DNA of 42,817 nt, from the NCBI GenBank assembly GCA_903822595.1, contig CAIJPS010000060.1, positions 1 through 42,817 on the forward strand. Direction: 5' to 3'. A program made the position numbers and the translations under genes. Below, one piece after another: positions 26,268 to 42,399 of this stretch. Position 1 is the first letter of the stretch; each line of letters opens with the position of its first letter. Below the pieces are notes generated by a model. That model was not told the DNA's origin. It saw only the letters and a program-made list of their open reading frames with translations, and made no database searches. This DNA is from an uncultured Chlorobiaceae bacterium (lineage in GTDB: Bacteria > Bacteroidota > Chlorobiia > Chlorobiales > Chlorobiaceae).

Positions 26268-27374
26268 TTACCTGAGTTTTAAGGTCATGAGACTGGCAAG
26301 AAAAAAGAGAATGGTCAAAATCCAGAACCGGATCACGATCTTTTGTTCCGCCCATCCTTTCAACTGAAAATGGTGATGAAGGGGAGCCATCAAAAAAATC
26401 CTTTGGCCCTGGCCATACCTCATTTTCGTATACTTGAAATAGAGTACCTGAAGGGAAACGGAGAGCGTCTCAAGAAAAAAGATCCCTGCCATCAAGGGCA
26501 AAAGCAGTTCCTGCTTGATCAAAAGCGCGATAACGGCAATAGCACTTCCAAGAGCAAGAGATCCCGTATCGCCCATGATAATCTCTGCCGGATTGGAGTT
26601 AAACCACAAAAAACCGACACAGGCCATGACAATTGCCATACTGACCACGGCAATCTCACCCCCTCCGGGAATAAAGGGAATATTGAGATATACCGCATAG
26701 ACTGCATTACCAGCAAGGTAAGAAAAACCACCCAGACCCATAACCACTATAGCCGAACTGCCAGCAGCAAGACCATCAAGCCCGTCCGTCAGGTTAACCG
26801 CATTCGATACTGCGGTAATGATAAAGATAACGATCGGTATATAAAAAAAACCGTAATCAAGAGTCAGGTGCTTGAAAAACGGCACGGTTGTCGTCGACAG
26901 GAGCACCGAAAAAGCGGGATCAAACCAGGTATAGATCCCTATCACCAGACCAAGAGAGACCTGACCGATAAGTTTATAGCGGGCAGAAAGTCCACCCTTG
27001 ATTTTCAGTACCACCTTGCGGTAATCATCAATAAAGCCAATGATCCCCATCCAGAGAATGGCAAGCATGACCAACCAGACATGTGGATCATTAAATTTTG
27101 ACCAGAGCAGCACAGAGAGCTCAATGGAAAAGATAATGAGGAGCCCTCCCATAGTCGGCAGCTCCTTTTTCTTTTTATGCTCCGGAGGCGCCTCCTCCTT
27201 GACGGGCTCAATGAACCTGGATTTCAGATATCTGATAAATCCGGGCCCGGCAAACAGAGTAATCAGCAGTGCCGTAATCGCTGCTGCGCTTGCCCTGAAA
27301 GTGAGATACTCAATAACATGAAGGCCCGGCGGATCAAACATATCATCAATATACTTCAGCAGATAATAAAGCAT
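26268..27374 (-). CDS. mraY: Phospho-MurNAc-pentapeptide transferase MraY
   Basis: An integral membrane enzyme that attaches phospho-MurNAc-pentapeptide to undecaprenyl phosphate, making lipid I. It has 368 residues and about ten helices. Conserved sites are PTMGGLLII, the magnesium-binding aspartates in FIDDYRKV and [12 protein letters not shown], the GDTGSLALG loop and the histidine motif [12 protein letters not shown]. It starts 3 bases after murF ends. Confidence 0.96.
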
Positions 27375-27377
27375 ACC

Positions 27378-28841
27378 CTATTCTGGCCCGGTTATGGTTA
27401 TAGTTCTTGCATTGATGAGCGCATCGACAACCCGTTCAAGCTTCATTCCCCTTGATCCTTTTATTAAAACAATATCTCCCTCCTGCAGCACTCTCAAAAG
27501 AGCCTCAAGAAGTTTTTCGCGACTCTCAAAATGGCCCCGGCAAAGTCCCGGAACCTCCCGCCCAAAAATCCGGGCCCTCTCTCCAAAAGTAAAGAGCATG
27601 TCAACTGAGCTCCGCTGAAGGTAACAACTGATAGCTTCATGTTCAGCATCTCCCGCCACTCCAAGTTCAAGCATATCACCCAGCACAGCAATTCTTTTGC
27701 CTGAACACGGAATATCACAAAGCGTATCAATCGCCAGGCGCATAGAGTCCGAGTTGGCATTGTAGGTATCATTAAGGATTCTCAGACCGCATGAGTCAAC
27801 GACCTCAAGACGTTTCCAACCACGAGCAGGAGCAAGTCCTTCCAGCCCCTCCCGAATCTGGCTGAGTGAAAGGCCAAAATGGTGCCCGACTGCGGCGGCG
27901 GCAACAGCATTAATCACATTATGCTTTCCGGTAAAGTTCAGCACCACCATTTCTGTTCCAAAATCGGAACAAAGAAGAAAAGAGAGCTGGCCCGCCCTGT
28001 TTACCGAAATCTCCCGTGCCCAACAGCTATGAGCGGGACTTTTTGCAATACCGTAGGTAACGCTCCCCGCCATCCCCTCTCCTGCTGCGCTGAGCCTTAG
28101 ATCATCGGCATTTACAAAAGCAATGCCACCTCTCTGGCGCAGATAATCGAAAAGTGGTATTTCCGCTGCCGCAACCCCATCAAGATCAAGAAGAAACTCA
28201 AGGTGCTCATGACCGATATTTGTCAAAAGAGCATGTGTGGGTCTTGCAATGCTGGCAAGCAATGCCATCTCGCCGGGATGATTAATACCCATCTCGACAA
28301 CAGCGATATCGGTATCAGGGCGAAGTTGCAACAAAGTCAACGGCACGCCGAGATGGTTATTCCTGTTACCCCGGCTCATATTGACCTTAAAGGCGACTCC
28401 AAGCACCGATGCGACCATCTCCTTCGTTGTCGTTTTTCCATTGCTGCCTCCAATAGCTACAACAGGGATAGAAAATTTGCTCCTGTAAATCGTAGCGAGT
28501 TGCTGCAAGCCAGCTACCGTGTCATCCGTGACAATAAAACCTTTTCCTGGAGGCAGCTCAACAGAACCCTGTGCATCATACCACTGACGGCTGACCATTG
28601 CCCAGCATGCGCCCTTCTCAAAAACAGCATTAATATACATGTGCCCATCTGCATGCTCACCTTTCAGGGCAATAAAAAGCTCTCCCCCGGTAACCTCTCT
28701 TGAATCGATGACCACGACGGGAGAGGCAACCTCCCACGGTGGAGGTGGTTGTAAGGGCACGCCATGGCGTGCCCCTACGACCACCTCTCCAACTTCCCGA
28801 AAATCATCAATCGTCAGCACGACTTTCGCGTTTACTTCCAC
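27378..28841 (-). CDS. murF: UDP-MurNAc-tripeptide--D-alanyl-D-alanine ligase
   Basis: Adds D-Ala-D-Ala, completing the pentapeptide precursor; 487 residues. It starts with GTG at 28841, behind a GGAGAGGGAGAG ribosome site inside the murE end (10-base overlap). The N-terminal domain has VVIDSREVTGGELFIALKG, and the ATP loop is AIGGSNGKTTTKEM near residues 130-142. NDTYNANSDSM is typical of MurF. Residues ~19-34 (EVVVGARHGVPLQPPP) are encoded by a palindromic repeat inserted in frame between FREVGE and the conserved VVIDSRE. The gene is otherwise intact. Confidence 0.95.
   Translation of the reverse strand: MEVNAKVVLTIDDFREVGEVVVGARHGVPLQPPPPWEVASPVVVIDSREVTGGELFIALKGEHADGHMYINAVFEKGACWAMVSRQWYDAQGSVELPPGKGFIVTDDTVAGLQQLATIYRSKFSIPVVAIGGSNGKTTTKEMVASVLGVAFKVNMSRGNRNNHLGVPLTLLQLRPDTDIAVVEMGINHPGEMALLASIARPTHALLTNIGHEHLEFLLDLDGVAAAEIPLFDYLRQRGGIAFVNADDLRLSAAGEGMAGSVTYGIAKSPAHSCWAREISVNRAGQLSFLLCSDFGTEMVVLNFTGKHNVINAVAAAAVGHHFGLSLSQIREGLEGLAPARGWKRLEVVDSCGLRILNDTYNANSDSMRLAIDTLCDIPCSGKRIAVLGDMLELGVAGDAEHEAISCYLQRSSVDMLFTFGERARIFGREVPGLCRGHFESREKLLEALLRVLQEGDIVLIKGSRGMKLERVVDALINARTITITGPE
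28742..28787. repeat. Palindromic repeat unit embedded in murF
   Basis: A 46-base inverted repeat: two 22-base arms match at 20 of 22 positions around a central AT. The core reads GGGCACGCCATGGCGTGCCC. It resembles the GGGGCACG-type palindromes dispersed in several bacterial genomes. It falls wholly inside the murF reading frame and keeps it open. I saw no second copy in this window. Confidence 0.85.
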
Positions 28842-30397
28842 AAGCTCTCCCTCTCCGGATATCCGGAACTGTTTTCCTGCATATATTTTTTTATAAGCTC
28901 TTGATCCGAAAAGAAATGTTTACGACCTGCAATCTCCTGATACGTTTCATGCCCTTTTCCGGCCACGAGAAGAACGTCACCCTGTTGGAGCATCAATACC
29001 GCCCTCCTGATAGCATCAGCCCTATCACAGATCCTCATGTAATGCCCGCTGGTAATTCCGCTCTCAATTTCATCAAGAATCACTTCAGGCTCTTCGTCCC
29101 GAGGATTATCGGAGGTAATGATAACCTCATCGGCTATTTCGGAAGCAATACGCCCCATTTCAGAACGCTTTGTGCGGTCTCTGTTGCCCCCACACCCGAA
29201 AACCACGACAAGACGGGAACCATCAGGCTTAAGGTTGCGCAGGGCATCAAGTGCCTTGAACAGCGCATCCGGGGTATGAGCATAGTCCACAAAAGCAAAC
29301 CACCCCTGACTGCCATCGCCGATTCTTTCCATACGACCATCAACCGAAGAAACCGCCGAAAGAGAGCGGCAGATATCTTCAGGAGCAAGACCCATACCGA
29401 CACCAACAGCAGCAGCTTCCAGCACATTCATCACATTGAAAATTCCCGGCAGTCCAACCTGCATCGTCATAACCGTTCCTGGAAAATGAAGGGCAACGGT
29501 ACTCGACGCAAGAGTGGTTTGAAGAATCTCTGCCTCAAAAAGCCTGCCGCAAAAAAACGTGGGACGAACCTCCTGGCGCAATGTACAACAGTATATTTTA
29601 TGATGCGCCACCCGTGCAGCCATCTGTTCGGCATAGGGAACATCGATATTGATGACCGCAAACCCTTCCGGGGAGAGCTGATCGAACAATTGCTGCTTGG
29701 CTGAAGCATACGCCTGCATGGATTCATGAAAATCAAGATGCTCCATGGTCAGGTTGGTAAAAAGTGCTGCATGAAACCGGATTCCATAAACTCGCTGCAG
29801 CACAAGGGCATGAGAAGAGACCTCCATGACTGCCGCCCTGCATCCCGCATCCACCATCTTACTGAAGAGAGCGTGCAAGCCGGAAGCCTCAGGAGTGGTA
29901 CGATCAAGCGGTATATCAAGTTCTCCAATCCTGCAAAGATTGGTACCGATATAACCTGCAGAAATTCCGCCAGCATTGAGCATGGCCGTAATCAGCTTTG
30001 CTGTCGTGGTTTTACCATTGGTGCCCGTAACACCGATAATCATCAACTGGTCAGAAGCTTTTCCATAAAAAATCCGGGCGGCCTCCGCCAGGGCCTTTCG
30101 CGCATCAGAGACCTTGATATAAAGGCAGGAAAGTGCGATATCATACGGAAATTCCTCGCAGATAACCGCTACAGCTCCGCGCTCCACCGCACTGAGAATA
30201 AAAGAGGAACCATCACTACAATAGCCCTTTATCGCGACAAAAAGCGAACCGGGAAGAACTTCCCGAGAATCAGAGGTAACCAAGCGGATCACCCCGCCTG
30301 TACCGGTTTTTCCAGCAAGCTCTAAATAGGGAACTTCTTTGAGCAACTCCTCCATTTGCACCTCATGCCTGCAGGCACGCTCTCTTGAGGCTGTCAT
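28832..30397 (-). CDS. murE: UDP-MurNAc-L-Ala-D-Glu--2,6-diaminopimelate ligase
   Basis: Adds the third residue of the stem peptide; 521 residues. The ATP loop is IGVTGTNGKTTTAKL near residues 121-135. The specificity motif is DNPR (430-433, in TSDNPRDEEP), which marks meso-diaminopimelate rather than lysine as substrate. The N-terminal TSDSREVLPGSLFVAIKG is family-typical. The ATG at 30397 overlaps the ftsI stop as ATGA. An internal ATG at 30355 (MEELLKEV) also fits family starts and could be the true one. Confidence 0.95.
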   Translation of the reverse strand: MTASRERACRHEVQMEELLKEVPYLELAGKTGTGGVIRLVTSDSREVLPGSLFVAIKGYCSDGSSFILSAVERGAVAVICEEFPYDIALSCLYIKVSDARKALAEAARIFYGKASDQLMIIGVTGTNGKTTTAKLITAMLNAGGISAGYIGTNLCRIGELDIPLDRTTPEASGLHALFSKMVDAGCRAAVMEVSSHALVLQRVYGIRFHAALFTNLTMEHLDFHESMQAYASAKQQLFDQLSPEGFAVINIDVPYAEQMAARVAHHKIYCCTLRQEVRPTFFCGRLFEAEILQTTLASSTVALHFPGTVMTMQVGLPGIFNVMNVLEAAAVGVGMGLAPEDICRSLSAVSSVDGRMERIGDGSQGWFAFVDYAHTPDALFKALDALRNLKPDGSRLVVVFGCGGNRDRTKRSEMGRIASEIADEVIITSDNPRDEEPEVILDEIESGITSGHYMRICDRADAIRRAVLMLQQGDVLLVAGKGHETYQEIAGRKHFFSDQELIKKYMQENSSGYPERESLWK

Positions 30398-41420: not shown

Positions 41421-41741
41421 ATATTTTCTGCAGGAACATAGTCAATCAGAGTTCACAATAATAGTATCGCTGGCTGCTCAAAATCGTCTTGATCAGTTTA
41501 TGCCCAAAATAGAAAAAATGGCACTCCAAGGGATGTTCCTTCCGTGCTGACAACAGCATCCAAAAAGCAATGCTCAAACAAACGAGTTTCGATATCTCAT
41601 AAAACGGTCGTTTGATGAGATATCGAAAAGGGTTGCGAAACACCCCTGTTTTCTGGCTCTTTTTGTCTTATAAAAATTTCGTATTTCTATATTTCAGTAA
41701 TCCGTTAAAATTGGTGCTTTTTAAGATTAGCAAGAGAATGT
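41421..41741. other. Gene-free AT-rich stretch upstream of the recombinase pseudogene
   Basis: No supportable gene. A long palindrome is at 41587-41628. Just upstream of the recombinase start, TGTCTTATAAAAATTTCG (from about 41665) resembles half-sites found in serine-recombinase res sites, which is a weak likeness only. Confidence 0.35.
41587..41628. repeat. 42-bp palindrome
   Basis: Two 20-base arms (TTTCGATATCTCATAAAACG and its near-complement) match at 19 of 20 positions around a central GT. It lies in the gap between the toxin-antitoxin pair and the recombinase pseudogene. No T run follows, so it is not an obvious terminator. Confidence 0.8.
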
Positions 41742-42316
41742 ATGGACGGACGACTGATCGGTTATGCAAGGGTATCAACTTCAGGCCAGGAACTGAACCT
41801 GCAGCTTGATGCACTTAAACAGGCTGGCTGCAAAAAGCAGCAGATCTTTACCGACCAGATAAGCGGCTCTAAAGCTGAACGGCCGGGGCTTGCCGAATGC
41901 TTGAAAGAGCCAAAAAAAGGCGATACCCTCATCATCTGGCATCTTGACCGACTTGGCAGGTCACTGCGGAACCTGATCGATATTGTCGAACAGTTGCAGA
42001 AAAGGGGAGGGGATTCCTCTCAATCGATGACGGCGGCATTGATACCAAAACAGCATCCGGGGAAATGATTTTCAATATCTTCGGCACTCTGGCACAATTT
42101 GAGCGCCGCCTGATTCAGGAACGTACCCAGGCAGGCCTGACGGCGGCAAGGGCGAGAGGAAGAAAAGGTGGGAGACCGAAAATCTCGAAGTAGGATCCGA
42201 GAGTGCAGATGGCCAAAAAGATGAGCAAGAATATGAACATCAGCATCGGCATCGGCGAGATCTGTGACACGCTGAAGATTTCACGGGTGTCTTATTATCG
42301 GTATTTGGGTTTGTAG
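41742..42316 (+). pseudogene. Serine recombinase (Tn3-type resolvase/invertase), two lesions
   Basis: The first frame reads MDGRLIGYARVSTSGQELNL with the catalytic serine (S12), then IIWHLDRLGRSLRNLIDIVE. A one-base loss in the G-rich run at about 42003-42012 shifts the frame. The other frame continues GFLSIDDGGIDTKTASGEMI, IFGTLAQFERRLIQERTQAG and GRKGGRPKISK, then meets an in-frame TAG at 42191. Beyond it the helix-turn-helix resumes: VQMAKKMSKN and EICDTLKISRVSYYRYLGL, ending at 42316. A six-base ATCGGC duplication gives ISIGIGE. With a frameshift and a nonsense codon the gene is dead, although every domain can still be read. Confidence 0.9.
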
Positions 42317-42362: not shown

Positions 42363-42399
42363 GTATGCAATATTAAGGTTGAACTTTAATATTGCATAC
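42363..42399. promoter_or_regulatory. Long inverted repeat abutting the ATPase start codon
   Basis: Arms GTATGCAATATTAA (42363-42376) and TTAATATTGCATAC (42386-42399) are perfect, with a 9-base spacer. The ATG follows one base later at 42401. No ribosome site is present, so it may be an operator overlapping the promoter of a leaderless message. Confidence 0.65.

Follow-up and report, generated by a model that had tools for sequence, protein, structure and literature searches.

A dispersed palindromic repeat of GTAG REP type read in frame within murF of an uncultured Chlorobiaceae bacterium

In-frame REPs of the GTAG/CGTC kind have been reported within genes, recB among them, in many species (Di Nocera et al. 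2013, PMC3733652), and in the same survey GTAG repeats came from Proteobacteria, Cyanobacteria, Chloroflexi and the PVC group, while Chlorobi gave only CGTC repeats. The transposases associated with REPs, known as RAYT or TnpA-REP, include a subclass 2.4 (RAYT group 4) marked by double-foot REPs, by NH[IFV]H and WQ motifs and by YIxNNP (Quentin et al. 2018, PMC6006769); that work also described REPs lying in frame between the HUH and Tyr motifs of their own transposase genes, so we make no claim of novelty for REPs inside RAYT genes. Cleavage of REPs by TnpA-REP has been demonstrated for other systems (PMC8266576).

In this study we follow up a palindrome within murF of an uncultured Chlorobiaceae bacterium (GCA_903822595.1, contig CAIJPS010000060.1), using a window that comprises positions 1-42,817 of the forward strand, the whole stretch of DNA analysed. 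An earlier note on this window took protein-embedded palindromes to be known mainly from Rickettsia, a view that is out of date given the GTAG/CGTC REPs found in genes (PMC3733652) and in transposase genes (PMC6006769). We consider it highly probable that the murF palindrome is a 28-bp double-foot GTAG REP served by a RAYT of the same genome, tolerated in a variable stretch of MurF and persisting in a group of Chlorobiaceae.

The palindrome and its place in MurF

The features of the murF locus to which the text refers are as follows.

26268-27374, minus strand: mraY, downstream neighbour of murF; open reading frame
27378-28841, minus strand: murF, an open reading frame of 487 codons with a GTG start overlapping the end of murE
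28742-28750, minus strand: outer arm on the 3' side (murF sense), codons of a proline-rich Q-P-P-P stretch, partly common to other filled alleles (DNA alignment)
28751-28778, minus strand: double-foot GTAG REP of 28 bp, matched by a covariance model at E 1.9e-9
28779-28787, minus strand: outer arm on the 5' side (murF sense), old murF codons E-V-V, also found in empty-site species (DNA alignment)
28832-30397, minus strand: murE, upstream neighbour in the mur operon; open reading frame, aligned in the tree

An inverted-repeat search gives 28742-28787 as the strongest inverted repeat in the window (arms of 24 nt, 92% complementary), and palindrome scoring pairs 21 of 23 positions over its 46 nt. 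Scored as a gapless palindrome it reaches 17, far above chance level, as 200 first-order Markov random windows gave no more than 12. As the earlier note had seen, this near-perfect palindrome lies entirely within the murF reading frame and keeps that frame open. The identity of the host gene as a Mur ligase is confirmed by its Pfam matches (Mur_ligase, Mur_ligase_M and Mur_ligase_C); relatives of murF are present in all 41 genomes searched, and the gene order here is murE-murF-mraY. The transcribed palindrome is predicted to form an RNA hairpin of -39.3 kcal/mol (z -7, with 0 shuffles equally good) some 55 nt from the start of the murF coding sequence.

Among solved structures of MurF, alignments to 1gg4 and 4cvk begin at residues 41-42, just past the insert, and those to 2am1 and 3zm5 span the insert stretch with differences in length. 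By these structure-sequence alignments the insert sits in a part of MurF that varies in length, ahead of the conserved DSR motif and the Mur-ligase domain, and that is probably a surface loop.

Two other inverted repeats lie near the end of the window. One, of 20 bp at 41587-41628, stands shortly before a serine-recombinase gene (41742-42190) whose frame seems broken near 42010, and may have served a now defunct resolvase as its recombination site. The other, of 18 bp (94%) at 42363-42399, overlaps the 5' end of a reading frame that is ATPase-like (GPRQSGKTTL) and extends past the contig end.

A dispersed repeat and its RAYT partner

Comparison of copies and their flanks shows that the repeating unit is 28 bp long, GTAGGGGCACGSCATGSCGTGCCCCTAC, with two main core variants, GGCATGCC and GCCATGGC. 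Outside these 28 bp the sequence varies between copies, so that the outer 9 bp on each side of the murF palindrome belong to murF and not to the element; the 46-base element of the earlier note is thus an accurate description of the inverted repeat, but the shared unit is only 28751-28778. The consensus carries GTAG at one end and CTAC at the other, and the murF copy agrees with it at 27 of 28 positions, with GTAG as its foot on the murF strand and, through one change, GTAA on the other strand. On each strand the element is open in two of the three frames, as VGARHGVPL or RGTPWRAPT, the former being the reading used in murF.

The murF palindrome is a copy of a dispersed repeat, as the earlier note had supposed from its likeness to mobile palindromes. 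In the same genome the 20-bp core is found at 9 places with three mismatches or fewer (0 for a reversed-pattern control), and 24 of 61 genus genomes contain a match to a strict pattern. With a covariance model trained on 24 copies and matches counted at E 0.01 or better, the tally is 29 of 65 genus genomes and 21 hits in the source genome, both strands counted, where about ten places carry the element. Copy number is low, up to some 18 places in other genomes and below that of classical REPs, which counts against the REP interpretation.

The dispersed copies bear directly on whether the palindrome could have arisen in place, a template switch within murF having made a perfect palindrome out of a short GTAGGGGC-like stretch with no mobile element involved. 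The left arm does resemble the empty site of relatives (GTCGCCGGGGC, GTCGGAGGC), and the outer arms pair even though they are murF sequence; a template switch could nevertheless account only for these outer 9-bp arms, since the 28 bp match other genomic copies at 26-27 of 28 positions, core included, and the empty site lacks the core. The dispersed copies thus largely refute such a local origin, which we regard as very improbable.

The source genome also encodes a candidate partner, a Y1_Tnp (IS200-like, HUH) gene of the RAYT/TnpA-REP kind on contig C83 (C83:44467-45009). Copies of the element flank this gene on both sides, at 44402 and 45064, and a further copy lies in frame inside it, at 44708. 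The protein has NHVH and WQRNY motifs (WQRNYWE), with the in-frame REP between them, and its form of the YIxNNP motif is YIRNNT, several relatives having YIRNNP; the close RAYTs with a complete loop carry the peptide GTACRAPT or GTACRART between the HUH and Tyr motifs. Close relatives of the protein occur in 7 other genomes of the genus, and the element is present in 8 of 8 genomes with a close RAYT versus 21 of 57 without one (Fisher P 0.0009, approximate owing to the kinship of the species). The element has what characterizes GTAG REPs, namely a palindrome of 20-40 bp (here 28 bp), a GTAG foot, dispersed copies and a RAYT flanked by the same REP. By the motifs and the form of the REP it is assignable to the GTAG double-foot REPs of a subclass-2.4-type TnpA-REP REPtron, and we infer that the C83 RAYT would be the enzyme that moves it.

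A separate pattern was seen in RAYT genes of the genus and phylum, where at least five unrelated REP families lie in frame between the HUH and Tyr motifs (RAYTs L235-L241, L243, L244, L246, L248-L251, L258, L365, L379 and L383), the internal REP often being identical to the REP that flanks the same gene. Its recurrence with different cognate palindromes within one genus is striking, the general phenomenon being that of PMC6006769.

Gene context was checked for 68 further copies in 67 stretches, with reading frames tested against Pfam. Only copies in RAYT genes and in one recB gene lie strictly inside a Pfam-supported gene, one more is in the C-terminal tail of a polysaccharide-synthesis gene (L316), and the remainder appear intergenic or at gene ends; the family is thus mostly intergenic, and the murF copy is an exception. 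The recB copy, from another species of the genus (L350:1489-1516, equivalent to G053:C11:135588-135615), is in frame at about residue 127 of a protein whose match to a RecB structure in the PDB covers residues 30-631. Long open reading frames also span copies in L313, L333, L337 and L330 but were not counted as evidence of coding: in the first three the Pfam domain and a likely start codon both come after the copy, and the fourth frame has no Pfam match. At L192:1523-1550 (G000:C2:75022-75049) a copy and the end of a reading frame overlap, and the stop codon seems to be provided by TAA in the foot of the copy.

Filled, decayed and empty sites among relatives

The MurF sequences compared were drawn from across the genus and from named genomes. 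A related insert occupies one and the same murF site in ten Chlorobiaceae species, counting the source species; this site is empty in the close relatives L012, L173 and L016 as well as in the more distant species examined. Of the ten filled species L171 matches the element consensus fully (28/28), the source genome at 27/28 and L172 least, at 18/28, and paired arm positions drop from 14/14 to 5/14; the palindrome DNA decays in these relatives while the frame stays open.

Relative to the empty L012 allele, DNA alignment gives filled alleles about +6 to +21 bp between conserved codons, +18 bp in the source genome. The net gain over empty-site species is accordingly 2-7 residues, 6 in the source genome, and the earlier note's figure of about 16 added residues was an overestimate. 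The gain is only 6 because the insert also replaces some ancestral residues: filled alleles lack about five that stand before P-P, so that the insertion came with, or was followed by, local sequence loss. The gap that the earlier note expected in other MurF proteins is there in L012, L173 and L016, but it is not a clean one, and this unclean insertion is a second point against the REP interpretation.

Two rival readings can be judged against this series of alleles. A conserved regulatory role, in which the hairpin is kept to tune how the mur operon is translated or how stable its mRNA is, or for DNA topology, would suit the strong predicted hairpin, unmatched by shuffles, and the published ability of REPs to act on mRNA stability and transcription. 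The palindrome has, however, decayed in most filled relatives, with no compensatory pattern seen among the ten filled species, and several species have no insert at the site at all, which argues against selection for the hairpin and makes a regulatory reading very unlikely. Less likely still, and the least probable of all the readings, is that the residues are an ordinary variable loop of MurF unrelated to any mobile repeat, or an assembly artefact. Similar residues do stand at the same place in nine other species, which the earlier note would have taken as grounds for rejecting an insertion where the DNA had diverged, but the DNA there is still a decayed palindrome at the same place, as expected of an inherited or repeated insertion and not of the absence of one. 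Moreover, the residues are missing from empty-site relatives and more distant MurFs, the insert is present in ten separately assembled genomes, and its DNA is that of a genome-wide repeat, whose dispersed copies refute this reading.

The distribution of the insert does not track the tree cleanly, the third point against a simple REP history. Trees were built from the murF body and from the DNA of murE-murF-mraY. In these L171 falls together with L173 and L016, whose sites are empty, at full support, and the source genome branches deeper with weaker support. This mismatch requires more than one event, either one gain and one loss or several gains. Simple deletion is an unlikely origin for the empty L173 and L016 alleles, which resemble the ancestral site of outgroups, and a search for a recombination breakpoint around these two alleles found no clear switch. 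Between the source genome and L171 the copies show 1 difference in 28 positions, against a 21% divergence of the murF bodies; at P 0.012, the lowest value among six comparisons, this is only suggestive. Repeated insertion, conversion between copies and exchange of alleles are all possible. A bolder proposal, which we hold to be doubtful, is that the element targets this murF site repeatedly, the same codons having been entered independently in several lineages (the source species, L171 and an eight-species group) or kept near-identical by conversion from other genomic copies; if so, one stretch of an essential enzyme is remodelled time and again by a family of mobile DNA.

Taken as a GTAG REP, the element would be non-autonomous and served by the RAYT/TnpA-REP single-strand transposase of the same genome. 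One copy would have entered the length-variable, probably surface-exposed stretch near the N-terminus of MurF in one of its two open frames per strand, and so be translated as VGARHGVPL. The insert may have been kept since it does little harm, its near-neutrality being presumed, and its persistence in a species group of Chlorobiaceae would be by descent, perhaps also by repeated insertion or exchange.

Comparison with described REP systems

Elements of this kind are already known, and the murF case leaves the view of what REPs are unchanged. Its new points are murF as host gene, Chlorobiaceae as lineage, and a set of alleles, filled, decayed and empty, that can be compared: in related genomes one REP insertion into an essential gene can be traced as its palindrome goes from intact to decayed, beside empty sites, so that the cost and fate of in-gene REPs become measurable. 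GTAG REPs and RAYTs are also documented here in green sulfur bacteria, for which the 2013 survey (PMC3733652) had only the CGTC type.

Rickettsia palindromic elements are likewise palindromic repeats in frame in genes that probably encode functional proteins; they belong to another lineage, and the murF element is set apart from them by its GTAG foot and RAYT link. With the intragenic GTAG REPs of PMC3733652 it shares the form of a short GTAG-footed, RAYT-linked palindrome in frame in a gene of known function, and it differs from those cases in having murF as host gene and Chlorobiaceae as lineage, with alleles in all three states available for comparison. Its likeness to the subclass 2.4 REPtrons (PMC6006769) lies in the double-foot REPs, the RAYT with NHVH and WQ and the in-frame REP between HUH and Tyr motifs, and the differences from these are a Chlorobium subfamily, a low copy number and an extra copy in a housekeeping gene of the host.
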